In this document: positions 33,191 through 64,000 of the stretch, piece after piece
Position numbering within the stretch: the stretch's first letter is position 1
Layout: each line of letters starts with the position of its first letter
The notes under the pieces: model-generated
Databases searched by the model: none
What the model was told of the DNA's origin: nothing
What the model saw: only the letters and a program-made list of their open reading frames with translations
From: Labrys monachus
GTDB taxonomy: Bacteria; Pseudomonadota; Alphaproteobacteria; Rhizobiales; Labraceae
Assembly: GCF_030814655.1 (NCBI RefSeq)
Contig: NZ_JAUSVK010000001.1
Span: forward strand, 1,321,501-1,385,500
Length of the DNA: 64,000 bases
Reading direction: 5' to 3'
Program-made: the position numbers and the translations under genes

Positions 33191-34264
33191 TTACGTCGGT
33201 TCGGCGTCGGTGCGGCCTTCGAAGCGGGTGTTGCCGAGATAGGCGTCGACATTGTCCCTGGTGACGTAGGCCTGGCTGGTATCGCTGTTCGCCGGGCCGA
33301 CGAGGCCGCCCGAGAGCTTGTAGAGATACATCTGCTGCACCGGCAGGAAGCCCTGTAGATAAGCCTGCTGGTCGGTGGTGAAGGTCATGTCGCCGCTCTT
33401 GATGAAGCCGAGCGTCTGCGGGAAGAGGTCGAACCCGGCGACCACCGCGCCCTTCTTGGCGAGGCCGTATTTGTTGGATACGAAGCCGCAGGCATAGCTG
33501 TCCGACCCGCCGGTGCCGAACAGGCCGACGACGTTCTTGTGGCTGAGATAATAGCTCTCGACACGCGAGATCTCCGTGGCCGGATCCGGCCCGGTATTGA
33601 CGACGTCATAGGTGACGTCGCTGCGGTGATCCTTGATCGCCTGGATATAGCCGTCGAGGCGGGGCTGGGTGTTGAGCGAGCCGGGCACGCCGATCGACAG
33701 CATGACGTGGCCGCTCTTCGGGATCTGCGCCAGCCATTTCAGCGCGACATTGTAGCCGGCGGTGTAGAGCGGCTGGCCGACATAGGACAGGCGCTTGTTG
33801 GGGCTGCCCGTGGGCACGTCGGCATTGAAGGCGATGACGGGAATGCCGGCCGCGGTGGCCATCGCCGTCGCTTGGTCGAAGGCCTTGGGGTCGACGAGGC
33901 AGACCGCGATGCCGTCCGCCTTCTGGGCGATGGCGGTCTGCATGGCGTTGACCATCTCGGACACGACGTTCTTCTGCGATCCCGTCCACTGATAGGTACA
34001 GCCGAAGGCGGCGCAGGCGTCCTTGATGCCGTAGATCGTCGGCGTGAAGAACTGGTCCAGCGTGACGTGGCACACGAAGAAGAATTTGTAATTCTTCTTC
34101 GGCAGGCCGCCGGCGGTGGTGTCGGCCAGGGCCTTGCCCGAGCCCAGCCCGCCGGCGAGGCCGGCTGCGCCGGCGCCGAGCGCCGCCGCCGTCATGAACG
34201 CCTTGCGCCGGTTCATGCCGCCGGCGATCGCCGGCATCTCAGCGTTGTCCCTGATGTCGTCCAT
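33191..34264 (-). CDS. sugar ABC transporter substrate-binding protein, RbsB-like (Tat signal)
   Basis: A 357-residue periplasmic binding protein. A twin-arginine motif NRRKAFM begins at residue 18 after an unusually long N-terminal segment, followed by a Gly/Ala-rich hydrophobic stretch and a LAD cleavage region near 48. The type-1 periplasmic-binding fold is seen in NVVSEMVNAMQTAIAQKADGIAVCLVDPKAF and AGIPVIAFNADVP. GGGAGG six bases before ATG 34264 supports the long start. First gene of the kdgD operon. Confidence 0.9.
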   Translation of the reverse strand: MDDIRDNAEMPAIAGGMNRRKAFMTAAALGAGAAGLAGGLGSGKALADTTAGGLPKKNYKFFFVCHVTLDQFFTPTIYGIKDACAAFGCTYQWTGSQKNVVSEMVNAMQTAIAQKADGIAVCLVDPKAFDQATAMATAAGIPVIAFNADVPTGSPNKRLSYVGQPLYTAGYNVALKWLAQIPKSGHVMLSIGVPGSLNTQPRLDGYIQAIKDHRSDVTYDVVNTGPDPATEISRVESYYLSHKNVVGLFGTGGSDSYACGFVSNKYGLAKKGAVVAGFDLFPQTLGFIKSGDMTFTTDQQAYLQGFLPVQQMYLYKLSGGLVGPANSDTSQAYVTRDNVDAYLGNTRFEGRTDAEPT

Positions 34265-44458: not shown

Positions 44459-45486
44459 TCAGGGCATCGCTCGGCCGCATCCTCGTCGCGCCGCTCTGCA
44501 TCGCGGTGGCGGTGGCGGTCTTCGCCGCGGCGGCGCCGGATTTCGTCTCCGGCGGCAATCTGGCCAATGTCGCCGGCCAGATGTGGGTGCTCGTGCTGCT
44601 GGCGGTCGGCCAGATGTTCGCGATCGCCTCGCGCGGGTTCGACATCTCCGTCGGGGTCGTCGCCGCGCTCGCCGGCACGGTGGCCGCCATCGCCGCCAAC
44701 CAGTTCGGCTTCTGGGCGCTCGCCGCCGCGCCGCTCGTCGGCATCGCCTGCGGCACGCTCAATGGCTGGCTGATCGGGCGCCTCGGCCTCCAGCCGATCG
44801 TCGCCACCCTCGGCATGCTGATCGCTGCGAAGGGCGTCGCGCTGCTGATCAGCGCCGACGGCCAGGCGGTCCCGCTATCGGATGCCGCCCTGTCGGCGCA
44901 TCTGGCCTTCGACGCGGTGCTCGGCCTGCCGCCCCTCGGCTGGCTCGCGCTCGCCGGCGTCGTCGCCGCCCATGGGCTGCTGCGCCACGCCGCCATCGGC
45001 CGGCGCATCCTGATGCTGGGCTCGAACCCCGACGCGATCGGCCTCGTCGGCGCCGATGCCGGCGCGCTGCAGATCCGCGCCTACCAGCTCTGCGGCCTGT
45101 TCGCCGGGCTCGCCGGCGCTCTGATGACGGCGCGGGCCGGCGCCGGCCTGCCGACCGAAGGCTCGGGCATGGAATTGCAGTCGATCGCGGCGGCGGTCAT
45201 CGGCGGCACCGCGCTGTCGGGCGGCGCCGCCACCGTCTGGACCGTCGTCGCCGGCGCGGCCTTCATCCAGGTCGTGCTGACCGGCCTCAACCTCACCGGC
45301 GTCTCGCCCTTCCTCGCCCAGGTCGCGGTCGGCGCGGTGATCGTCGGCTCCGGCCTCATCGATGCCGGCCTGCGTTCGCTCCTCTCCAGCGTCCGGAGAT
45401 CCGTGTCCACATCACCCAAGCCTAGTCCTGCCAACCCCACCATAACCACATCCACCATCCAGAAAACCAAGGGAACCCTGCCATGA
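44455..45486 (+). CDS. sugar ABC transporter permease (RbsC-like) 2
   Basis: A 343-residue permease: VLLAVGQMFAIASRGFDISVGVVAALAGTV in the first half and SIAAAVIGGTALSGGAATVWTVVAGAAF in the second. It carries a Ser/Thr/Pro-rich C-terminal tail of about 30 residues that ends inside the ATGA overlap with the binding-protein gene. That tail lacks family similarity and may just bridge the gap between genes. Confidence 0.9.
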   Translation: MIRASLGRILVAPLCIAVAVAVFAAAAPDFVSGGNLANVAGQMWVLVLLAVGQMFAIASRGFDISVGVVAALAGTVAAIAANQFGFWALAAAPLVGIACGTLNGWLIGRLGLQPIVATLGMLIAAKGVALLISADGQAVPLSDAALSAHLAFDAVLGLPPLGWLALAGVVAAHGLLRHAAIGRRILMLGSNPDAIGLVGADAGALQIRAYQLCGLFAGLAGALMTARAGAGLPTEGSGMELQSIAAAVIGGTALSGGAATVWTVVAGAAFIQVVLTGLNLTGVSPFLAQVAVGAVIVGSGLIDAGLRSLLSSVRRSVSTSPKPSPANPTITTSTIQKTKGTLP

Positions 45487-46442
45487 AAACCTTCCGCCGC
45501 GCCGCCATCCTCGCCGCCGCCCTGCTGTCCGCCACCGCCATGAGCCGCGCCGCCTCGGCCGGGGAGACGACGATCGGCATCGCCGTGCCCAATCTCGCCT
45601 CGTCCTTCTGGATCTCCGCCGTCTACGGCATGGAAGCGGAGGCGAAGACCGCCCATGTCACCATCATCAAGCTCAATGCCGGGGGCGATGCGAACACCAG
45701 CCAGCAGATCTCCCAGATCCAGGACCTGATCCAGCGCAAGGTCGACGCCATCGTCGTCGGCGCCACCAATGGCGACGGCGTCAAGGCGATCGTCGAGCGT
45801 GCCATCGCCGCCGGCATTCCCGTCGTCGGCATCTCCTCGCCGCCCAACACGCCCAAGCTCGCCTCGGTCGTCAGCGCCGACCATTACGGCATGGGCAAGC
45901 TCCAGGCCCAGTGCCTGGCCAAGGCGATCGGCGGCAAGGGCAATGTCGCGATGATGGCCGGCCCGTCGGGACAGGCCTGGTCGGACCGGCGCGCCCTGGG
46001 CTTCAAGGAGACGCTGGCCGCCGAGGCGCCCGCGGTGAAGATCGTGGCGGAATCCCGCCTGGCGGACAACCGCAACGCCGCCCTGAGCACGGCCGAGGAC
46101 TGGACGCAGCGCTTCCCCGACCTCGCCGGGGTCTATGCCGCGACCGACGACATGGCGGCCGGCATCGTCTCCGCCTTCAAGGAAGCGGGCACGCCGGTGC
46201 ATGTCTCCGCCTCCAATTTCAGCCCGACGGCGCAGCAGATGCTGAAGGACGGCGACATCGCCTGCACCTCGATCCAGGAGGTCGTCGTCCAGGGCCGCGA
46301 CGCCCTCCAGCAGGCCGTCAACGCCGCCACCAAGAAGCAGGTCGAGCCGCAGGTGGTGACGCCGGCCCTCCTGGTGACCCGCGACAACATGGCGACCGTC
46401 GACCTGAGTTCGGCGGTCGCCCCGGCCGACTATCGTCCCTGA
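45483..46442 (+). CDS. sugar ABC transporter substrate-binding protein, RbsB-like
   Basis: A 319-residue periplasmic protein with a Sec signal peptide (cleavage near RAASA-GE, residue 28). The fold is seen in TIGIAVPNLASSFWISAVYGMEAEAK, SQIQDLIQRKVDAIVVGATNGDG, AAGIPVVGISSPPN and VYAATDDMAAGIVSAF. Its ligand is probably the starting compound for the enzymes that follow in the operon. Confidence 0.9.
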   Translation: MKTFRRAAILAAALLSATAMSRAASAGETTIGIAVPNLASSFWISAVYGMEAEAKTAHVTIIKLNAGGDANTSQQISQIQDLIQRKVDAIVVGATNGDGVKAIVERAIAAGIPVVGISSPPNTPKLASVVSADHYGMGKLQAQCLAKAIGGKGNVAMMAGPSGQAWSDRRALGFKETLAAEAPAVKIVAESRLADNRNAALSTAEDWTQRFPDLAGVYAATDDMAAGIVSAFKEAGTPVHVSASNFSPTAQQMLKDGDIACTSIQEVVVQGRDALQQAVNAATKKQVEPQVVTPALLVTRDNMATVDLSSAVAPADYRP

Positions 46443-52032: not shown

Positions 52033-53103
52033 ATGTGGCTGACGCGATTTCGACGCTTTCGCATCTCGGACATGGAGTATCTCTCCCGCAAATACCTCGC
52101 CTTGCTGCGCAAGCGCTACGGCGTGGGGCCGGACGCGGTGAGCGACGCACCGCCCCTGGAGATCTGGCCCGAGCTCGGCGGGATCGCCGAGCCCGCCGAA
52201 ATCCCCGCGGTCATCGCCTCGCAATCCGCCTCCTCGCCGCGCCTGCTCAATCACTATTGGAACCTGCTGCTGGGCCATCTGATGGAAGAGGTCGACCCGG
52301 CGTTCGCCGCCCGCGTCGCCATCTTCATCGGCGAGGTTCCGGACAGCCGCTTCAACGCGCTGACGACGGGCGGCGGCGGACGCCACCTCATCCTGGTCCA
52401 GCGCGGGCTGGAGCTCTTTCTCTACCGCATGGCCTTCGTCATCGTCGGTTCGATGCGGTGGCGCTTCGATGATCCGGACGGGAGCCGGACCGTCGTTGAA
52501 CCCGACATCGACATGGCCGCCGCCATCGCGGAGATGCGCGCCAACCTCGCTTTGCTGCGGGCGGGACGGCACCGTATGCCGATCGCGCTTTCCTCGCCCG
52601 CCATGCTCCGCATCGCGCCGTTTCTGGCCTATGCGATGCAGCAATTCGTCATCGCGCACGAAATCGGGCATATCGCGCAGGCCGTCTGGCGCCGGCACCC
52701 GCCGCAGAGCGCCCGCGAGCAGGCGATGCCGGCGCGGGCGAGGGACCTGCCCTGGCCCGCCTGGCGGGAGGAGGCGGTCTGCGACATGTTCGCGGCCGAT
52801 CTGTGCGAAAAGCTGGTGGTCCGGAACGCGCCGCGCTTCGGGCTCGAGGGCAGGCTGGCCAGGCGCCTGCTCGCCGAGGCGCCCCATGTCGTGTTCCTGT
52901 TCATGCAGGTCCTCGAACATGCGGGGAGCGCGCCCGGCCGCGGATATCCCTCCCATCCTCCCGCGGCGATGCGTTCGACCATCCTGATCGAGCACCAATC
53001 TGCCCACGACCTCCTGGCCGAGGAGCGCGACCTCGTGGCCGAGTGCTGCCGGCATGTGGCGACGCTCGCGGGCCTCGTCCCCTCAGGCCATACACCAAAT
53101 TAG
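52033..53103 (+). CDS. predicted zinc metalloprotease-like protein (HEXXH)
   Basis: A 356-residue soluble protein I cannot place in a named family. It carries HEIGH at 209-213 inside a helix (QQFVIAHEIGHIAQAV) and, 33-38 residues later, REEAVCDMFAADLCEKL (245-261), with Glu246/247 and Asp251 able to be the third zinc ligand. The ExxCDxFAADL arrangement resembles ImmA/IrrE-type gluzincins, but the rest does not. No signal peptide. It follows the two-helix membrane protein. A catalytic role is inferred from the motif alone. Confidence 0.65.
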   Translation: MWLTRFRRFRISDMEYLSRKYLALLRKRYGVGPDAVSDAPPLEIWPELGGIAEPAEIPAVIASQSASSPRLLNHYWNLLLGHLMEEVDPAFAARVAIFIGEVPDSRFNALTTGGGGRHLILVQRGLELFLYRMAFVIVGSMRWRFDDPDGSRTVVEPDIDMAAAIAEMRANLALLRAGRHRMPIALSSPAMLRIAPFLAYAMQQFVIAHEIGHIAQAVWRRHPPQSAREQAMPARARDLPWPAWREEAVCDMFAADLCEKLVVRNAPRFGLEGRLARRLLAEAPHVVFLFMQVLEHAGSAPGRGYPSHPPAAMRSTILIEHQSAHDLLAEERDLVAECCRHVATLAGLVPSGHTPN

Positions 53104-53114
53104 AGGGGAAAATC

Positions 53115-53128
53115 GATCAAAAGTGATC
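53115..53128. promoter_or_regulatory. DeoR-type operator-like site 1
   Basis: GATCAAAAGTGATC, with GATCA/TGATC inverted ends. A nearly identical copy lies 102 bp downstream, over the start of the regulator gene. Confidence 0.6.
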
Positions 53129-53216: not shown

Positions 53217-53230
53217 GATCAAAAATGATC
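53217..53230. promoter_or_regulatory. DeoR-type operator-like site 2, over start codon
   Basis: GATCAAAAATGATC differs from site 1 by one base and contains the regulator's ATG (53225). Binding here would block transcription or initiation, and the 102-bp spacing would allow looping between sites. Autoregulation is the simplest reading. Confidence 0.6.
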
Positions 53231-54961
53231 GCTATCGAACGTGAAGAAGCCATTCTGGGTCTGCTCAAAGAGAAGGGCACGGCCTCGCTCCGCGTCCTCC
53301 AGCAGAAATGCCCTGACGCTTCGGCCGTGACGTTGCGGCGCGATCTGGCGCGGCTGGAAAGCCAGGGCAGGCTTCGGCGCATCCATGGCGGCGCCGTCCG
53401 CATCGCAGCGGCGGACATGCCGGAACCGGCGGACAGGAGCGGGCCTGAAGACGGCCAGCATGCGTTCGACGGTCTCATCCTGCCGCCGGTGGGCGGGCGC
53501 TGGGCGCATACGCTGCGCCAGCAGGCGATGCGGCGCGGCATGCCGTTCCTGGCGGAATCGGCGCCGCAGGCCGGCGGCATCTATCTCGGTCCGGCGAACC
53601 GGCAGGAATCCCACCGCCTCGGCCTTTACGCCGGCCAACGTCACGGGCACCGGGCGAAGACGGCCGAAGTGCTCCTCGTCACCCTCGAGGCGCTGCCCAA
53701 TGCGCGCGAGCGCGTCGAGGGCTTCATGGCGGGGTTCGCCGAGGCCTTTCCCGGCGACGTCGTCTTCCATCGCGTCCATGGCCAGGGCCTGTTCAAGGAA
53801 GCGATGCGCCGTGCCACCGACGCCTTCAGGGCCCATCCGGACATCGACGTCATCTTCGGCGCCAACGATCATACGACGCTCGGCGCCATCGAGGCGGCGA
53901 AGAGGCTGGGCAAGCCCGTCGTCGGCTATTCGGTCGGCGGGGAGGGCGGCACGCTGTTCGACGAACTCGCCCGCGGCGGCGTGCTGCAGGCGGTGCTGGT
54001 GCTGTTTCCGGAGGTCGTCGGCCTGCTCGCCATCGATACGATCTGCCGGCAGTTCGCCGGCGAGGAGGTCGGCGAAGCCGTGATCACCCCGGCCGAAGTG
54101 ATCACGCCGCAGACGCTAGGCGATTTCTACCAGCGCGACGACAATCAGTGGCGCCTGCGCCCGGAGGTGCTGGCGCGCATGGTGGCGGGGCGCACCTATG
54201 CCGGCCCGCCGATCGCCGGCCGTTCGATCGGCTTCATGCTGCATTACCCCTCGCATGAGTGGTATCGCAGCCTCGCCGCCGCCATGCGCCGCCGGTCGGC
54301 CGAGGTCGGCGCCGTGTTCGTCGCCCGCAACGCCGAGGACGAGGTCGCCGAGCAGATCCATGCCATCAAGCGCATGATCGGCGCGACCGCCGCGACCGAG
54401 GTCCGGCCGAAGGAGACGCTGCTGATCGACGGCGGCGAGTGCTCGCGCTATTTCGCCGAGGCGCTGCGCGCCTCCGGCCAGCAGGCCACGGTCTACACCA
54501 ATGCGCTCGCCATCCTGGAAATCCTGGCCGACGCGCCGGGCATCAAGCTGTTCCTGACCGCCGGCGAATACCAGCCGGCGACGCGCAGCCTGGTCGGCCC
54601 GAGCGTCGGCGCCCTCCTGGAGACCATCCGCGTCGACAAGGCGATCGTCTCGCCCGACGGCGTCGCCACCGGCTTTGGCCTGTCCTTCGAGGACGAGCGC
54701 GCCGCCCTGGTCTGCCGCCGCTTCTGCGATTCGGCCCGCGAGGTCGTCATCCTCGCCGACCACAGCGTGGTCGGCCTGGAATCCCGCGTGCAGGCGGCCC
54801 GTCTCAGCCGGCCCCATACCATTTTTACCGATGCGGGCACCCTGCCGGCGCACCGTCTGGATCTGTCGACGGCAGGGCTGCGCGTGATCATAGCCGACGA
54901 GGACGGGGACGAGGAAGCCCCCCTCTGGCCTGTGCCCCAGGTGAAGAAGGCCCATCGATAA
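53225..54961 (+). CDS. DeoR-type regulator with inserted sugar-binding (periplasmic-binding-like) domain
   Basis: A 578-residue regulator. Residues 1-60 are a DeoR HTH ending in RRIHGGAV. Residues 80-302 look like a type-1 periplasmic-binding domain from its third strand onward (FDGLILPPVGGRW, RRGMPFLAES, ARERVEGFMAGF, HPDIDVIFGANDHTTLGAIEAAK). Residues 331-387 (GRSIGFMLHYPSHEWYRSLAAAMRRRSAEVGAVFVARN) resemble the missing first two strands of that fold. Residues 396-560 are the DeoR C-terminal sugar-phosphate domain (LLIDGG, YTNALAILEIL, RSLVGPS, EVVILADHS). It heads the sugar-importer operon by 22 bp and probably senses that substrate. Confidence 0.8.
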   Translation: MIAIEREEAILGLLKEKGTASLRVLQQKCPDASAVTLRRDLARLESQGRLRRIHGGAVRIAAADMPEPADRSGPEDGQHAFDGLILPPVGGRWAHTLRQQAMRRGMPFLAESAPQAGGIYLGPANRQESHRLGLYAGQRHGHRAKTAEVLLVTLEALPNARERVEGFMAGFAEAFPGDVVFHRVHGQGLFKEAMRRATDAFRAHPDIDVIFGANDHTTLGAIEAAKRLGKPVVGYSVGGEGGTLFDELARGGVLQAVLVLFPEVVGLLAIDTICRQFAGEEVGEAVITPAEVITPQTLGDFYQRDDNQWRLRPEVLARMVAGRTYAGPPIAGRSIGFMLHYPSHEWYRSLAAAMRRRSAEVGAVFVARNAEDEVAEQIHAIKRMIGATAATEVRPKETLLIDGGECSRYFAEALRASGQQATVYTNALAILEILADAPGIKLFLTAGEYQPATRSLVGPSVGALLETIRVDKAIVSPDGVATGFGLSFEDERAALVCRRFCDSAREVVILADHSVVGLESRVQAARLSRPHTIFTDAGTLPAHRLDLSTAGLRVIIADEDGDEEAPLWPVPQVKKAHR

Positions 54962-54983: not shown

Positions 54984-56213
54984 ATGCTGAAGGGTTTGAT
55001 GAAGTCGACCGCTGCGGCGGCGATGGGACTGTGGTTCCTGTCGGGCGCGGCCCATGCCGACCCCGTCGTCCTCAAATTCTGGGACAACCAGCAGACCGAA
55101 TCCGGCCTGTCGGTGTTCCAGCAGGAGGCGGTCAAGCGTTTCGAGGCCGAGAACCCCGACATCAAGGTCGAGGTCACGACCATTCCCTATCCGGAATATC
55201 AGCAGCGGCTGCTGACGGCCGTCCAGGCCGGCAACGGCCCCGACGTCTCCACCGTCGACCAGATCTGGAACGCCGCCTTCGCCCAGGCCGGCGCCATCGT
55301 CCAGCTCGACGATCTCGCCTCGAAGGCGGGCGTCAAGGCCGCCGGTTTCTTTCCCGGCGCCTGGGAGTCGGCGAACTACAAAGGCGGGCTCTGGGGCATT
55401 CCCTTCAATGTCGACGTCTGGTTCTTCGCCTTCGTCAACAAGAAGCTGTTCTCGGACGCCGGCGTCGATCCCGCCTCGGCCGTGACCTGGCAGGGCCTCG
55501 AGGCCGCCGCCAAGAAGCTCACCGACAAGTCCAAGGGCCATTTCGCCATCGGCCTCACCGGCAGCAAGAGCGAATATCCGGTGGTGATGACCGATTCCTT
55601 CATCTACTCGAATGGCGGCGCCGTGCTGGGTGACGACGGCAAATGCGCGCTGACCAGCCCGCAGGCGGTCGAGGCGCTCGAATTCTACAAGAAGATGGCG
55701 GATTACGCGCCGGCCGGCATCCTCAATGCCGGGGACGAGCCGATGCGCGAACTGTTCCTCAACGGCACGCTCGCCATCGAGCTCTGGCCGGCCCTGGAGC
55801 AGCCCACGCTCGACAAGTCGAAGATCGACTGGGATCTGATCGCCGGCTTCGCGCCCGAGGGCAAGAAGGCCGTCGGCACCTTCGGCGGCTGGAATCTGGT
55901 GCTCTACAAGCAGTCGGCGCACCAGGAGGCGGCCTGGAAGTTCATCCAGTTCATGACGCGCCAGGACGTCAACGGCGCGGTGGTCGACCTCATCCCCGCC
56001 AATGTCGCGGCGGCCAAGGACTTCCTGCAGAAGAGCCGGCGCCATCCGGATGTCATCCTCGAGCACCTCAACAACGCCAAGCCGCGGCCGCTGTCGCCGC
56101 GCTATCTCGAGGTCTCCGACATCCAGCAGACGATGGTGCAGAAACTGCTGTCGGGCACCCCGGCCGCGGATGCGGCCAAGGAAGCCTGCCAGGCGATCGA
56201 CGCCCTGCAATAG
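54984..56213 (+). CDS. ABC transporter substrate-binding protein, UgpB/MalE-like
   Basis: A 409-residue periplasmic protein of the carbohydrate uptake family 1. The Sec signal ends near AHA-D (residue 26). Landmarks are VVLKFWDNQQTESG, DVSTVDQIWNAAFAQAGAIVQLDDLASKAG, LWGIPFNVDVWFFAFVNKKLFSDAG and the GGWNLVLYKQSAHQEAAWKFIQFMT segment. GGAGG precedes the ATG. It follows the DeoR-like regulator and precedes two permeases across a hairpin gap, so it is the dedicated receptor of this importer. Confidence 0.9.
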   Translation: MLKGLMKSTAAAAMGLWFLSGAAHADPVVLKFWDNQQTESGLSVFQQEAVKRFEAENPDIKVEVTTIPYPEYQQRLLTAVQAGNGPDVSTVDQIWNAAFAQAGAIVQLDDLASKAGVKAAGFFPGAWESANYKGGLWGIPFNVDVWFFAFVNKKLFSDAGVDPASAVTWQGLEAAAKKLTDKSKGHFAIGLTGSKSEYPVVMTDSFIYSNGGAVLGDDGKCALTSPQAVEALEFYKKMADYAPAGILNAGDEPMRELFLNGTLAIELWPALEQPTLDKSKIDWDLIAGFAPEGKKAVGTFGGWNLVLYKQSAHQEAAWKFIQFMTRQDVNGAVVDLIPANVAAAKDFLQKSRRHPDVILEHLNNAKPRPLSPRYLEVSDIQQTMVQKLLSGTPAADAAKEACQAIDALQ

Positions 56214-56304: not shown

Positions 56305-56380
56305 CGGCTGATCTGCTTTCCTCGTGCTCAAGGGTCTGAATACCTGCCCATGGGAAATCGTACCTTCCGGATCTCACGAC

Positions 56381-57277
56381 ATGGCAACCGCACATAAGGG
56401 GCGAAGAAGCGATCGCTGGATGGCCTACGGCTTCATGATGCCGGCGGCGCTGCTCGTCGGCCTGTTCATGTACTGGCCGATGATCGATACCTTCCGCGAG
56501 AGCCTGTATTCGACCTCCTTCATCAACCCGGTGCCGTCCTTCGTCGGCCTTGCGACCTATCGGAAGATCTTCGCCGACAGGGAATTCTGGCAGGTCGTCG
56601 TCAATTCGATCGTGTGGACGGCCGGCGTCGTCTTCCTGCAGAATGTCGGCGGCTTCCTCATCGCGCTGCTGCTCAATCTCAGGCTGCCGGGGCAGGGGCT
56701 GCTGCGCTCGCTGATCCTGCTGCCCTGGGTGCTGCCCGGCGTCGTCGCCGCCATCCTCTGGCGCTTCATGTACGACCCGCAGCTCGGCCTCATCAATTCC
56801 TTCCTGATCCGCACCGGCCTCAGCGACCACGGGGTCGGCTGGCTGGCCGACCCCGGCACCGCCATGGCGGCGGTGATCTTCGTCGCCTTCTGGAAGGGCT
56901 TTCCGTTCTCGACCGTCGTCTTCCTCGCCGCCCTGCAGAATGTCGACCAGGAGCAGGTCGAGGCGGCGAAGATCGACGGCGCCGGCGCGACGCGCCGCCT
57001 GTTCGACATCGTGCTGCCGGCGATCCTGCCCGTCGTCGCCGTGAACATGCTGCTGACGACGATCCTGACCTTCAATTATTTCGACGTCATCTATGTCCTG
57101 ACGCGCGGCGGCCCGCTCAACGCCACCGCGATCTTCCCCACCCGCATCTACGAGGTCGGCTTCGGACAGTTCCGCTTCGGCGAGGCGGCTGCCTATGGCT
57201 CGCTCGCCGTCCTCGTCCTCGTTCTCTTCGTCGGCCTGCTGCTCGTCGCCCAGCGCATGCAGGCCAGAGCGGTTTGA
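56381..57277 (+). CDS. sugar ABC transporter permease, UgpA/MalF-like
   Basis: A 298-residue six-helix permease. The EAA loop is EAAKIDGAGATRRLFDIVLPAILPV near residue 200 and the end has FNYFDVIYVLTRGGPLNATAIFPTRIYEVGF, typical of this family. ATG 56381 gives the standard length; an in-frame start 57 bp upstream adds residues without similarity. It is 15 bp before the second permease. Confidence 0.9.
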   Translation: MATAHKGRRSDRWMAYGFMMPAALLVGLFMYWPMIDTFRESLYSTSFINPVPSFVGLATYRKIFADREFWQVVVNSIVWTAGVVFLQNVGGFLIALLLNLRLPGQGLLRSLILLPWVLPGVVAAILWRFMYDPQLGLINSFLIRTGLSDHGVGWLADPGTAMAAVIFVAFWKGFPFSTVVFLAALQNVDQEQVEAAKIDGAGATRRLFDIVLPAILPVVAVNMLLTTILTFNYFDVIYVLTRGGPLNATAIFPTRIYEVGFGQFRFGEAAAYGSLAVLVLVLFVGLLLVAQRMQARAV

Positions 57278-57292
57278 AAAGGACAGGCTGAC

Positions 57293-58126
57293 ATGGCGAG
57301 GCGTTCCACCTTCACCCGCAAGATGCCGCTGGTCGCGCTGCAGCTCGCGGTCGCCTGCCTCGTGCTCTTCCCGTTCTTCTGGATGGTCAGCGTCTCGCTG
57401 AAGCCGGCGACCGAGCCCTTCGCGATTCCCGCCCGGCTCTGGCCGGACCATCCGACGCTGGAAAACTACGTGCTCGCCTTCCGGCCGGAATTCCGGCGCT
57501 ATTTCCTCAACAGCACCATCGTCTCGGGCGCGACCGTGCTGATCACGGTGCCGCTGGCGCTGCTCGCCGCCTACAGCCTCACCCGCTACCAGTTCCGGGT
57601 GCTGTCGGCGTTCCTGGCCGCGGTGATCCTGGCGCAGTTCTTCCCGGCCGGCGCGATGATCATCCCGATCTATAAGATGGTGAAGGCGGCCAACCTGCTC
57701 GACACTTACGCCTCGCTGATCATTGCCTACATCACCATCACCCTGCCGGTCTCGATCTGGATGCTGCGCGGCTTCCTCGCGCGCGTGCCGAAGACGCTGG
57801 AGGAGGCGGCGGCGATCGACGGGGCGAGCCCGCTGCGCGCCTTCTTCGACATCGTCGTGCCGCTGGCCCGGCCGGGCATCATCGCCACCACCGTGTTCAT
57901 CCTCATCGTGACCTGGCAGGAATTCTTGTTCGCGCTCGCCTTCACCTCGACCAAGGAGATGCGGACGCTGCCGGTCGGCATGAACGACTATATCGGCCAG
58001 TACGGCATCCGCTACGGCGAGCTGATGGCGAGTTCCGTCCTCGTCTCCGTCCCGGTGATCGCCATCTTCTTCTTCCTGCAGCGCTATTTCATCGCCGGCC
58101 TCACCGCCGGGGCCGTCAAGGGATGA
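57293..58126 (+). CDS. sugar ABC transporter permease, UgpE/MalG-like
   Basis: A 277-residue six-helix permease: MVSVSLKPATEPF after the first helix, YSLTRYQFR, QFFPAGAMIIPIYKM, the EAA loop EEAAAIDGASPLRAFFDIVVPLARPGI and the C-terminal LQRYFIAGLTAGAVKG, all standard for this family. The crotonase gene overlaps its stop (ATGA), linking transport and acyl-CoA chemistry. Confidence 0.9.
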   Translation: MARRSTFTRKMPLVALQLAVACLVLFPFFWMVSVSLKPATEPFAIPARLWPDHPTLENYVLAFRPEFRRYFLNSTIVSGATVLITVPLALLAAYSLTRYQFRVLSAFLAAVILAQFFPAGAMIIPIYKMVKAANLLDTYASLIIAYITITLPVSIWMLRGFLARVPKTLEEAAAIDGASPLRAFFDIVVPLARPGIIATTVFILIVTWQEFLFALAFTSTKEMRTLPVGMNDYIGQYGIRYGELMASSVLVSVPVIAIFFFLQRYFIAGLTAGAVKG

Positions 58127-58929
58127 CCCGCGCCATGACTGAAAATCCAGCTTCTCTCGTCATCCTCGAAAAGCCGGAGCCCGGGATCGGCGTGCTCACG
58201 CTGAACCGGCCGGAGAAGTTGAACGCGCTGTCGACCGGCCTGCTCGCCGCCTTCGCCGCCGCGCTCGACGAGGCGGAGCGCGATGCCGGCATCCGCGTCC
58301 TCATCCTCACCGGGGCGGGCGAGAAGGCGTTCGCGGCCGGCGCCGACATCGCCGAATATCAGGGCCGCAAGGAAAAGGCCTTCATGGATTTCCAGTTCGG
58401 CGGCAGGCGCCTGAACGACCGCCTGGAAGCGCTCACCAAGCCGACGATCGCCGCCGTCAACGGCTATGCGCTGGGCGGCGGCTTCGAGATCGTGCTGTGC
58501 TGCGACGTCATCGTGGTGTCGACCAGCGCCAGGCTCGGCCTGCCGGAAGGCCTGCTCGGCCTGTCGCCCGGCGGCGGGGGCACGCAGCGCCTGATCCGTT
58601 CGCTGGGACGGCATGTCACCGCGGACCTGCTCCTCACCGCCGGACGCCTCAAGGGCGAGCGGGCCTTCCAGCTCGGCCTCGCGGCGGCGCTCTGCGAACC
58701 CGAAAATCTGCTGCGGACGGCGCTGGAAAAGGCGCGCGCGATGCTCAAGCTCGGCCCGCTCGCCCTCGGCGAGATGAAGCGCCTCGTCCGGCTCGGCGCG
58801 GATGCGGCGCTGCCGACGGCACTCGCCTTCGAGCAGGAAGTCCTGTTCCGGCTCTACTGCTCCGGCGACGGGCAGGAAGGCATCGATGCCTTCCTCGAAA
58901 AGCGTTCTCCGACCTTCAAGGGTATATGA
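58123..58929 (+). CDS. enoyl-CoA hydratase/isomerase (crotonase) family protein
   Basis: A 268-residue crotonase-fold enzyme. The oxyanion-hole segment AFAAGADIAEY is at about 69-79, and both hydratase glutamates are present, Glu122 in GGGFEIVLCCD and Glu142 in LGLPEGLLGLSPGGGGTQRL, spaced 20 as in true hydratases. It should add water to a 2-enoyl-CoA. Together with the CoA-transferase at 62193 it implies that the imported compound or a breakdown product is processed as a CoA thioester. A second ATG 12 bp in is an alternative start. Confidence 0.9.
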   Translation: MTRAMTENPASLVILEKPEPGIGVLTLNRPEKLNALSTGLLAAFAAALDEAERDAGIRVLILTGAGEKAFAAGADIAEYQGRKEKAFMDFQFGGRRLNDRLEALTKPTIAAVNGYALGGGFEIVLCCDVIVVSTSARLGLPEGLLGLSPGGGGTQRLIRSLGRHVTADLLLTAGRLKGERAFQLGLAAALCEPENLLRTALEKARAMLKLGPLALGEMKRLVRLGADAALPTALAFEQEVLFRLYCSGDGQEGIDAFLEKRSPTFKGI

Positions 58930-58930
58930 C

Positions 58931-59701
58931 ATGCCAGACCTCGATCAACGCGTCGCCATCGTCACGGGAGCCGCCATGGGCATCGGGCGCGCCAGCGCGC
59001 TGGCGCTCGCCCGTGCCGGCGCGGCCGTCCTGGTCGCCGATGTCGACGAGGAAGCGGGTGCGCAGGCGCGGGCGGACATCGAAGCCGAAGGCGGCAGGGC
59101 GATCTTCCTGCGCACGGATGTGCGCTCCTTCGCCGATGCCGAAGCGTGCACGGCTGCGGCGATCGAAGCCTGGGGAAAGGTCGACATCCTCGTCAACAAT
59201 GCGGCCAGGGCGATCGGCGGTGTCGTCGACGAGATCGACGAGGCGAGCTGGAACGAGGTGCTGTCGACCAATCTCACCTCGGTGTGGCGCTTCATCCGAT
59301 GCGTCGCTCCGCATATGCGCCGCCAGGGCGGCGGCTCGATCGTCAACATCAGCTCGGTGCAGGCGCTGCGGGGCTTCCATGGCTGGGCGGCCTATGCGGC
59401 GGCCAAGGGCGGGATCAACGCGCTGACGCAGCAGGCGGCCGTCGACCTCGCTCCGGCCAGGATCCGCGTCAACGCCGTGGCGCCGGGCACGATCATGACG
59501 CCGCTCAACGAGAAGGTGTTCCGCGAGGCCGCCGATCCGCAGGAACTGATCGACCGCTGGAACGCCGCCCATCCGCTCGGCCGGTTCGGCGAGGCGGAAG
59601 AGGTGGCGGAGACGGTGCTCTTCCTCGCCAGCGACCGCTCGTCCTTCATCACCGGCGAGATCATCCGCGTGGATGGCGGCCTCGCCATCAAGGGCGACTG
59701 A
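58931..59701 (+). CDS. SDR family oxidoreductase
   Basis: A 256-residue short-chain dehydrogenase with VTGAAMGIG (11-19), Asp37 in VADVDEE (NAD preference), NNAAR (89-93) and catalytic Ser141/142, Tyr155, Lys159 (YAAAKGG). It ends IIRVDGGLAIKGD. Starts one base after the crotonase stop. A 3-hydroxyacyl or polyol dehydrogenase role fits the operon. A 206-bp gap without a gene follows. Confidence 0.9.
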   Translation: MPDLDQRVAIVTGAAMGIGRASALALARAGAAVLVADVDEEAGAQARADIEAEGGRAIFLRTDVRSFADAEACTAAAIEAWGKVDILVNNAARAIGGVVDEIDEASWNEVLSTNLTSVWRFIRCVAPHMRRQGGGSIVNISSVQALRGFHGWAAYAAAKGGINALTQQAAVDLAPARIRVNAVAPGTIMTPLNEKVFREAADPQELIDRWNAAHPLGRFGEAEEVAETVLFLASDRSSFITGEIIRVDGGLAIKGD

Positions 59702-59907: not shown

Positions 59908-61007
<1,100 letters not shown>

Positions 61008-61011
<4 letters not shown>

Positions 61012-62180
61012 CACGTCTGCTTCGCGGCATCACCTGGGACCATCCGCGCGGATACGACCCCCTCGCCAAGGGCGCAGCGGCCTTTGCCGCGCTCCATCCC
61101 GGCATCGAGGTCGAGTGGAGCCGGCGCAGCCTGCGCGATTTCGGCGTCCAGCCGGTCGAAGTGCTGGCCGAGCAGTTCGACCTCCTCGTCATCGACCACC
61201 CGTTTTCCGGCCGGGCCCGCACCAGCGGCTGCCTGCGGGACCTGCGCACGCTCCTTCCCGCCGACTTCCTCGCGATGCTGGAGCGGGAGAGCGTCGGCCC
61301 CTCGACGCGCTCCTATGATTTCGGCGGGCTGTGGGCGCTGCCGACCGATGCGGCCGCGCAGGTGGCAAGCTATCGGCCCGACCTCGTCGCCGCGCTCGGC
61401 TTCGACGGGCCGCCGCGCCGTTTCGAGGAGGTGATCGCTCTCGGCGAGACGGCGCGCCGGAGCGGCAAATGGCTCGCTTTGCCGTCCTGCCAGAGCGACG
61501 CCGCCTGCCTCGTCGCCTCGCTGTCGGCCAATCTCGGCGTGCCCATCGCGCCCGGGCGCGAGGATCTCCTGCCGCCCGAGGTGTTCGAGACGGTGCTCGG
61601 CCTCCTCGAACGCCTGATCGCCCTCAGTCATCCGGAGTCCACGAGCTGGAATCCGATCCGGACCTATGACGCGATGACCGCCGGCGACGACATCGTCTAC
61701 GTGCCCTTCGGCTTCGGCTATAGCAATTATTCGCGTGCGGGGGGCGCCCGGCCGCTGCGGTTCACAACCGTCGCCGGACCCGGCGCGGACCCGGCGGCCG
61801 GCGCCATCCTCGGCGGTGCGGGCTGCGCGGTCTCGGCGCGATGCGCAGACATCGAGGCGGCGGCGGCCTACCTCACCTGGCTGCACCAGCCGGCCTACCA
61901 GGCCGGCGATTATTTCCGCAATGGCGGCCAGCCGGGCCTGCGCACCGCATGGACCGATCCGCAGATCGACCGCGAGGCGGGCTCCTTCTTCTCGGGCACG
62001 CTCGAAACGCTCGACAAGGCCTTTCTGCGCCCCCGTTTCGACGGCTTCATCCACGCCTTCGAGCATATGGGCCTTCTCGTCCATCGCTGGCTCGCCGAAG
62101 GCGGCGACCGAGCCGCCGTCATCCGTTCATCCAACGATGCCTATGCGCGTGCGCAGGACGCCGCCCCGGCATCAGCCTAG
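61008..62180 (+). CDS. solute-binding-protein-like protein without signal peptide
   Basis: A 390-residue protein resembling family 1 extracellular solute-binding proteins (GITWDHPRGYDPLAKGAAAFAALHPGIEVEW at the start, FDLLVIDHPF, YDFGGLWALPTDAAAQVASYRPDLVAALGFDG, and a helical C-terminal lobe), but it begins directly at the first beta strand with no signal peptide or lipobox. The start is fixed by the ATGA overlap with the ATPase gene. It is therefore probably cytoplasmic, alongside a normal exported binding protein in the same operon. It may sense or carry the substrate inside the cell. Confidence 0.8.
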
Positions 62181-62192
62181 AGGGTCGATACC

Positions 62193-63392
62193 ATGCCGAA
62201 AGCGCTGCAGGACGTCACCGTCCTCGATTTCACCCATCTGCTCCAGGGCCCCTTCGCCACCCAGCTCCTGGGCGACATGGGCGCCGACATCATCAAGGTC
62301 GAGCGGCCCGGCCAGGGCGACCTCTTCCGCACCATGACTTTCAAGAACCGTTGGGTCGGGGGAACGGAAAGCCCGAATTTCCTGGCCTGGAACCGCAACA
62401 AGCGCTCGCTCGCCATCGACCTCAAGGCGCCGGAGGCCAAGGAGATCCTCTACAGGATCGCCGAGAAGGCCGACGTCGTCATCCAGAACTTCCGCCCGGG
62501 CGTGCTCGCCAAGCTCGGCTTCGGCTATGAGGACTTCAAGGCGGTCAATCCACGCATCATCTATTGCTCGGGCTCCGGCTATGGCGACAGCGGCCCCTAT
62601 GTCGCCCGGCCGGGCCAGGACATGCTGATCCAGGGCCTGACCGGCCTCGCCGCGGCGACCGGCCGTGGCGACGGCGCCCCGACGCCGGTGGGCTCGGGCT
62701 TCGCCGACCAGATCGGCGCCATGAACATGGTCTACGGCATCCTCAGCGCGCTCTACTGGCGCGAGCGCTCCGGCGAGGGACAGGAGGTCAAGGTCGACCT
62801 GATGTCCGGCCTGCTGCAGCACCAGCACCAGGAAATGCTGTGGGTGATGAATTTCGAGGAGAACCTGGAGCGTCCCCATTCCTCGATCGGCCATCCCGGC
62901 ATGGACGCGCCCTTCGGCGTCTACCCGACCTCGGATGGATGGGTGACCATCGCGATGAGCCCCTACAAGAAGCTGATCGGCGTCCTCGATCGGCCGGATC
63001 TGCTCGTCTATGACGAGCCGCAGCTGCTTTTCGACAAGCGCGACGAGATCTGGGCGAAGATCGCCGAGGAGACGCGAAAATGGACGGCAGCGGACCTCCT
63101 CGACGCCATGCTTGCCGTCGACATCTGGTGCGGCGAGATCAAGCGCCATCTCGACGTGGTCGACGACCCGCAGGTCCGGCACAACGGCCTGATCACGACC
63201 TACGAACATGCCAGGGCCGGGACGGTCAAGGTCGTCGGGCCGGTGGTCCGCATGAGCGCCACGCCGCCGGCGATCGACCGGCCCGCGCCGATGGTCGGCC
63301 AGCATACCGAGGAGATCCTGCGCGAGTTCGGCATCGGCGAGGACGCCATCGGCGACCTCGAAGCCCGCAAGGTCGTGGCGCAGGCGGAGTAG
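62193..63392 (+). CDS. family III CoA-transferase (CaiB/BaiF)
   Basis: A 399-residue enzyme moving CoA between carboxylic acids. Family marks are VLDFTHLLQGPFATQLLGDMGADIIKVERPGQGD, NRNKRSLAIDLK, PGVLAKLGFGY and the catalytic Asp143 in RPGQDMLIQGLTG. It starts 12 bp after the solute-binding-like gene. With the crotonase and SDR it suggests activation of an organic acid to its CoA ester. The acid is unknown. Confidence 0.9.
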   Translation: MPKALQDVTVLDFTHLLQGPFATQLLGDMGADIIKVERPGQGDLFRTMTFKNRWVGGTESPNFLAWNRNKRSLAIDLKAPEAKEILYRIAEKADVVIQNFRPGVLAKLGFGYEDFKAVNPRIIYCSGSGYGDSGPYVARPGQDMLIQGLTGLAAATGRGDGAPTPVGSGFADQIGAMNMVYGILSALYWRERSGEGQEVKVDLMSGLLQHQHQEMLWVMNFEENLERPHSSIGHPGMDAPFGVYPTSDGWVTIAMSPYKKLIGVLDRPDLLVYDEPQLLFDKRDEIWAKIAEETRKWTAADLLDAMLAVDIWCGEIKRHLDVVDDPQVRHNGLITTYEHARAGTVKVVGPVVRMSATPPAIDRPAPMVGQHTEEILREFGIGEDAIGDLEARKVVAQAE

Positions 63393-63518: not shown

Positions 63519-64000
63519 ATGAACGATCTTCCCGACAAGCGCCCGCACATCGTCTGCTCGGGCGCCGCATCCTTCGATTCGATCTTCCGGATGGAGAAGC
63601 TGCCGACCGGCCCAGGCAAGGTCCTGCCCCTCGACGCCATCGAGGTCGCCCACGGCATGGCGGCGAGCGCGGCGGCCGCCATCGCCCGGCTGGGCGGACG
63701 GAGCACGCTGTTCTCGCGCGTCGGCGAGGACGGCGTCGGCGCCAGGATCATCGCCGATCTCACCGAGGCCGGCATCGATTGCGCCCATGTCCGCCGCGTG
63801 CCCGGCGTGCGCTCGCCGATCTGCACGGTGCTCGTCGATGCGACCGGCGAGCGGCTGGTGGTGCCCTTTTACGATCCGGCGCTGGGCCGGGACCCGTCCT
63901 GGCTGCCGCTCGGGCTCGTGGCCGGTGCCGATGCGGTCCTCGTCGACGTGCGCTGGCCCGAAGGCGCGGCGCTCGTCCTGAAGACGGCGCGGGAGGCCGG
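63519..64000 (+). CDS. PfkB family carbohydrate kinase (partial, cut by window edge)
   Basis: The first 160 codons of a ribokinase/PfkB-type kinase. The N-terminal beta sheet and first signature are readable: VCSGAASFDSIFRMEKLPTGPGKV, then HGMAASAAAAIARLGGRSTLFSRVGEDGVGARIIADLTEAGID. AGGA lies four to five bases before ATG 63519. The second signature with the catalytic Asp lies beyond the window. It follows the CoA-transferase by 126 bp and would phosphorylate a sugar or its derivative, supporting a carbohydrate substrate for the operon. Confidence 0.85.
   Translation, partial: MNDLPDKRPHIVCSGAASFDSIFRMEKLPTGPGKVLPLDAIEVAHGMAASAAAAIARLGGRSTLFSRVGEDGVGARIIADLTEAGIDCAHVRRVPGVRSPICTVLVDATGERLVVPFYDPALGRDPSWLPLGLVAGADAVLVDVRWPEGAALVLKTAREA

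Follow-up and report, generated by a model that had tools for sequence, protein, structure and literature searches.

A conserved DeoR-type regulator with an apparently circularly permuted RbsB-type binding domain between its DNA-binding and sensor domains

Introduction

Repressors of the DeoR/GlpR family, including AgaR, GlpR, UlaR and the LacR of Lactococcus, are proteins of about 250 residues in which an N-terminal helix-turn-helix (HTH_DeoR) is followed directly by a C-terminal sensor domain (DeoRC), and they head catabolic gene clusters. The regulator described here shares both end domains and a position at the head of such a cluster, but is 578 residues long, about 310 residues of binding domain separating its HTH from DeoRC. 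It also differs at the effector site, where a lysine and a loop threonine characteristic of these repressors are absent from all 13 of the permuted regulators.

RbsB-type domains serve as sensors in the LacI/GalR regulators, such as RbsR, and in AraR of Bacillus, which joins the same type of sensor to a GntR-type HTH. Our regulator is likely to resemble these in using an RbsB-type domain as a cytoplasmic sensor of free sugar, but is distinguished from them by its DeoR HTH, its internal, permuted binding domain and its additional DeoRC domain. It falls outside the LacI/GalR family, since its HTH is matched by HTH_DeoR and its sensor is not in the canonical order.

Natural circular permutation of a sugar-binding protein has been described for TpMglB-2 (Tp0684, 'Type Ic') of Treponema pallidum, in which the opening strands are C-terminal, as they are, by sequence, in the regulator. 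As characterised in PMC4990184, however, TpMglB-2 is an exported lipoprotein rather than a regulator, and three strands have moved, compared with two in the regulator, where the cut falls before β3. The crystallographic account in that paper nevertheless supplies a precedent, since a similar permutation with a different cut folds and binds sugar. Binding domains have also been joined to DNA-binding domains in synthetic regulators, which, in the designs presented in PMC6079105, embody the same idea but are engineered. The closest relatives that we found for both parts of the binding domain are RbsB-like proteins from an Rbs-type gene set (L043-L045, L085-L089), here called donors; these have six of nine pocket positions in common with the regulator and are encoded with the same pathway genes, but are exported, have the canonical order and form part of a transporter.

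Among the matches listed in searches of the open PMC literature for this architecture and for permuted binding proteins, no characterised regulator combined a DeoR HTH, a permuted binding domain and a DeoRC domain; this is weak evidence of absence, as subscription journals lie mostly outside that collection. The comparisons that follow indicate that the permuted DeoR regulator is real, conserved and unusual.

Results and Discussion

Domain architecture of the regulator

The regulator gene lies in a 64,000-nucleotide stretch of the Labrys monachus genome, which we call the window. Its parts are as follows, the strand names of the opening piece being assigned by analogy with RbsB.

53225..54961, + strand: regulator, 578 residues, HTH_DeoR, permuted Peripla_BP_4 and DeoRC (open reading frame, Pfam and family alignment)
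53225..53404, + strand: DeoR-type helix-turn-helix, residues 1-60 (Pfam HTH_DeoR, 6-60)
53462..54184, + strand: binding domain, main piece, β3 to the C-terminal tail, residues 80-320 (Pfam profile 56-257; hhalign to donor 103-349)
54221..54388, + strand: binding domain, opening piece, β1-α1-β2-α2, residues 333-388 (Pfam profile 1-54; hhalign to donor 49-104)
54389..54895, + strand: DeoRC domain, residues 389-557, without the canonical effector Lys and loop Thr (Pfam and motif comparison)

The open reading frame and the Pfam matches confirm the proposal of an earlier note that this 578-residue protein carries a sugar-binding domain between a DeoR HTH and a DeoR sensor. When the whole regulator is searched, HTH_DeoR matches residues 6-60 (E 5e-11) and DeoRC residues 380-536 (E 2.6e-30), the latter stretch beginning inside the last part of the opening piece. 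Peripla_BP_4 (2.8e-16 for the whole protein) is found in two stretches, the better one aligning residues 81-280 with profile positions 56-257 of 258, and the sensor matches both Peripla_BP_1 and Peripla_BP_4. Alignment with hhalign carries the domain's own C-terminal tail to about residue 320, so that the tail of the donors is present too, and a linker of about 12 residues (321-332) leads to the opening piece. The borders are thus only slightly shifted from those first suggested (80-302 and 331-387), to 80-320 and 333-388.

AlphaFold2 returned poor models, both for the regulator alone (mean pLDDT 39.7, pTM 0.26) and with an eight-row alignment built from the window and the L021 and L022 pieces (pLDDT 47.9, pTM 0.32). 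Viral contigs were scanned for relatives of the regulator fit for structure prediction, and none was found.

The binding domain is permuted

Separate profile searches of the two pieces gave complementary coverage in swapped order. Residues 81-280 match Peripla_BP_4 positions 56-257 (E 1.3e-12) and residues 335-387 match positions 1-54, the latter weakly when scanned alone (E 0.0016, 18.5 bits against a curated cut-off of 35.1), such that the profile is tiled once, end to end.

The same conclusion is reached from whole genomes. Segment 328-393, searched alone against 60 genomes, found its best matches outside the family in G019 (4e-7), G054 (2.2e-5) and G004 (1.2e-4), the next best being 0.009; these lie at G019:C10:211603-211761, G054:C2:158899-159051 and G004:C20:86162-86320. 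In a whole-protein search, residues 80-309 match the DNA immediately downstream in the same three genes. Each of these binding-protein genes therefore contains both pieces, in canonical order. With hhalign, residues 79-320 align to donor residues 103-349 (probability 99.9, E 1.6e-31) and residues 333-388 align without gaps to donor residues 49-104 (probability 97, E 6.5e-11). Against donor L005 the permuted form gives two separate matches (89 and 47 bits), whereas re-ordering the pieces canonically yields a single alignment over donor residues 49-349, with 309 columns, 29% identity and 125 bits.

A circular permutation of the RbsB-type domain is thus strongly supported by these alignments, and the permuted order that had been suspected is borne out by the separate Pfam scans, the shared donor genes and the un-permuted alignment together. 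We rejected the possibility of two unrelated pieces, as both have the same genes as their closest relatives; an assembly artefact, as the 13 members stand in separate records; and insertion of a binding domain in canonical order, as the order is swapped.

Distribution and conservation

Besides the regulator of the window, twelve full-length relatives were found. Searching 397 genomes of the same order gave a match at 1e-60 in 11, own genome included; ten are full length, and the match in G135 is interrupted by a contig end. Coverage of at least 80% of the regulator, at 40-41% identity, was also reached in three of 72,556 plasmid records, those of Sinorhizobium chiapasense, Shinella sp. HZN7 and S. 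mexicanum. At 1e-40 only the own genome matched in the class sample (1/289) and in the phylum sample (1/398), and none of the four same-genus genomes (G001-G004) gave a full-length match. A pattern-based scan of genome contigs, which reaches close relatives only, returned two remote binding proteins and no member of the architecture. The Shinella sp. HZN7 protein, WP_064333067.1, is annotated 'substrate-binding domain-containing protein', an example of how such an annotation can conceal a regulator.

The architecture is kept in all 13 aligned full-length members, although four of these are close relatives from one genus (L031-L034) and three are close Rhizobiaceae (P0002-P0004), so that independent lineages are fewer. 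Across the 13, invariant positions make up 14/60 of the HTH (23%), 47/241 of the main piece of the binding domain (20%), 16% of the opening piece and 36/169 of DeoRC (21%); no position is invariant in the linkers (61-79 and 321-332).

The gene cluster

The regulator is the first gene of a cluster in which all the genes below follow it on the same strand.

54984..56213, + strand: SBP1, MalE-type solute-binding protein (SBP_bac_1) with a signal-peptide-like N-terminus
56324..57277, + strand: ABC permease A
57293..58126, + strand: ABC permease B
58123..58929, + strand: enoyl-CoA hydratase/isomerase family protein
58931..59701, + strand: short-chain dehydrogenase
59908..61011, + strand: ABC ATPase
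61008..62180, + strand: SBP2, SBP_bac_1-type, without an evident signal peptide
62193..63392, + strand: CoA-transferase family III (CaiB/BaiF type)
63519..64000, + strand: PfkB-type kinase, cut by the window end

At an E-value of 1e-15, the CoA transferase (CaiB) and the short-chain dehydrogenase are present at all 12 further regulator loci, with just the start of the CoA transferase falling inside the stretch compared for L023-L025. SBP1 and both permeases are found at 11 of the 12 (not L051), as is the enoyl-CoA hydratase (not L049), with the ATPase at eight and SBP2 at seven. A PfkB kinase is encoded nearby in G260, together with a KDPG/KHG-type aldolase. The cluster enzymes point to a compound degraded through CoA thioesters; a literature search on the pathway found no paper.

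Several other features of the window and its relatives were seen. Most copies of SBP2 (window 61008-62180; L043-L048, L051, L085-L089, L023-L025) have a WDHPRG- or WDHRRCWGPLD-like motif at the N-terminus. An open reading frame of 356 residues just upstream of the regulator (52033-53100) is not matched by any Pfam profile at E 0.001. The window also encodes two more RbsB-like binding proteins, at 45483-46439 and 33194-34264, the second with a twin-arginine-like N-terminus.

Two versions of one gene set

Of 297 genomes of the order, eight encode a donor-type binding protein (1e-50), and the regulator is absent from all eight; a tblastn search of plasmids with donor L005 at 1e-40 gave no match. 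At every one of the eight loci the binding protein is accompanied by SBP2, an IclR-type regulator, an RbsA-type ATPase, a permease, a dehydrogenase and a CoA transferase, Pfam checks covering L043 and L045. The enoyl-CoA hydratase is present at seven of the eight, and the CaiB proteins are 62-65% identical to that of the window. By these comparisons there is one gene set in two versions, one with an Rbs-type transporter and an IclR regulator and the other with a MalE-type transporter and the permuted regulator. SBP2 occurs in both versions. The genus g78 contains both: G131 and G224 have the Rbs-type version, and G243, G320, G370, G382 and G393 have the permuted regulator and the MalE-type version. 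The two versions were not seen together in any genome, G000 being the one regulator-bearing genome identified in the sample searched for donors.

From this we infer that the binding domain may have been captured from the Rbs-type version of the gene set; a common third source for the domain and the donor proteins, or another direction of transfer, is possible. More tentatively, in a scenario that we would put forward with some reserve, the old binding protein was retained when a MalE-type transporter replaced the Rbs-type one, and was captured, permuted, inside a DeoR regulator, where it took over sensing, while the sugar-phosphate sensor was re-specialised for another molecule of the pathway, giving a natural two-input switch by nested domain insertion.

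The ligand pocket

Nine residues of Escherichia coli RbsB that are listed in PMC3676853 as ligand contacts were mapped onto the alignments. At the equivalent positions the 13 members have H, W, Y, S, A/S, R, N, E and L/F; the three donors compared have H, W, Y, G, N, R, N, E and M. Seven of the nine positions on this list are invariant in all 13 members, and six of the nine (H344, W346, Y347, R163, N214 and E240) are common to regulators and donors in 13/13. The overall identity between regulators and donors is 22-30%, compared with this six of nine (binomial 0.005-0.026 per pair, the pairs not being independent). The remaining three listed positions, S112, A113 or S113, and L260 or F260, are unlike the donors in every member. 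The ligand of the regulator is probably the same as, or similar to, that of the donor binding proteins.

The DeoRC effector site

In LacR, Asp210 and Lys213, and in UlaR, Asp206 and Lys209, are reported in PMC10991401 as needed for inducers that bear a phosphate. The Asp of this Asp-x-x-Lys motif is present in 32/32 canonical DeoRs and 13/13 family members, near-duplicate rows being included in both sets. In contrast, both the effector Lys (position 515) and a loop Thr (position 406) are found in 32/32 canonical DeoRs and 0/13 family members, the 32 having been chosen from a much longer match list before motifs were counted. The DeoRC fold, and the docking named in PMC10991401, suggest that this Thr would touch the effector. 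Five DeoRC residues, E448, Y449, Q450, P459 and S460, are invariant and specific to the family (13/13). The effector site thus appears altered rather than decayed, and the conservation of DeoRC, with E448, Y449 and Q450 invariant, speaks against a purely structural role; a second, different effector is possible.

In the form first proposed, the idea that the regulator reads a phosphorylated intermediate alongside a free substrate is not supported. The absence of both Lys and Thr from every member instead favours an exchange, in which one type of sensor has probably been given up for another.

Putative operators

Two paired GATC boxes lie close to the start of the regulator gene.

53115..53128, + strand: putative operator, GATC-N6-GATC
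53217..53230, + strand: second putative operator, GATC-N6-GATC, overlapping the start codon

A GATC-N5/6-GATC pair occurs within 260 bases upstream of all 14 genes considered (the 13 full-length members and L036). When these regions were shuffled, preserving base content only, a mean of 0.087 of 14 had a pair, with a maximum of 2 in 1000 trials, though close relatives do not contribute independent upstream regions. The background frequency is 81 in 304,130 bases, family regions included, and no other spacing between 2 and 15 is commoner than 14, which occurs in 4/14 regions. We infer that the regulator may bind such paired boxes. Donor locus L043 also has such a pair, but it sits inside the IclR-type gene and we do not count it as an operator.

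Four sites in the own genome fit the pattern of the second window site with at most one mismatch, and two of these are at the regulator gene. A third (L074, about 1939-1954; G000:C1:6165938), with one mismatch, lies where a GMC oxidoreductase gene begins, a gene that is divergent from a Mannitol_dh (mannitol-dehydrogenase-type) gene; this site is a possible further member of the regulon.

A model for signal recognition

How might such a protein work? The reading that we think probable is of a cytoplasmic regulator in which a permuted RbsB-type sensor of free substrate is nested in a DeoR HTH-DeoRC framework, with DeoRC either mainly holding the oligomer together or re-specialised; its most likely mode of action is that of a LacI-type sensor of free sugar. 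A complete RbsB-type domain, permuted between α2 and β3, would lie between HTH and DeoRC, and the permuted cut would set its two ends side by side, making possible a single pop-out insertion in the HTH-DeoRC linker. The domain would close around free substrate imported for the neighbouring CoA-linked pathway; this substrate is probably identical or closely related to the ligand of the Rbs-type transporter with the most similar binding protein. Closure could be relayed to the oligomer and the HTH through α2, which is seemingly continuous with the first DeoRC helix, and would alter binding to the paired GATC boxes ahead of the regulator's own cluster, most likely relieving repression. DeoRC would mainly keep the oligomer together, or would bind a new, non-phosphate effector.

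Three other readings have to be set against this. The regulator could be a two-input gate, with the permuted domain reading free substrate and DeoRC a second pathway molecule, whether phosphorylated or else non-phosphorylated or CoA-linked. The similar conservation of the binding domain and DeoRC (47/241 and 36/169 invariant) fits such a gate, as do the PfkB-type kinase gene downstream in the window and the presence of CoA transferases in the same fold superfamily as DeoRC, as noted in PMC10991401; we nevertheless regard it as rather unlikely, given that the canonical Lys and Thr are missing from every member and present in all the canonical DeoRs compared. It is also conceivable that residues 333-388 are exchanged between subunits, each opening piece filling out its neighbour's binding domain. 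The sequence order is compatible with such a swap, and DeoR regulators act as oligomers. However, the crystal structure of TpMglB-2 has a bilobed fold with permuted topology, and by the account in PMC4990184 roughly 12 residues separate an additional crossing of the hinge (284-288) from the first relocated strand (starting at 300), a spacing like that of the 12-residue linker of the regulator, so that exchange between subunits seems improbable.

Least probable of all is that the binding domain has ceased to be a sensor and serves just for oligomerisation or docking. The cluster does have its own transporter with SBP1, but the strict conservation of seven of the nine listed pocket positions, six of them donor-like against an overall identity of 22-30%, tells against it.

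If the nested sensor of free substrate is correct, the regulator would be a natural counterpart of what engineers have made by hand, a permuted binding domain put into a regulator as a switch. It also suggests a testable route by which a regulator may switch from sensing a sugar phosphate to sensing a free substrate, the donor-like transporters being still visible in related genomes.
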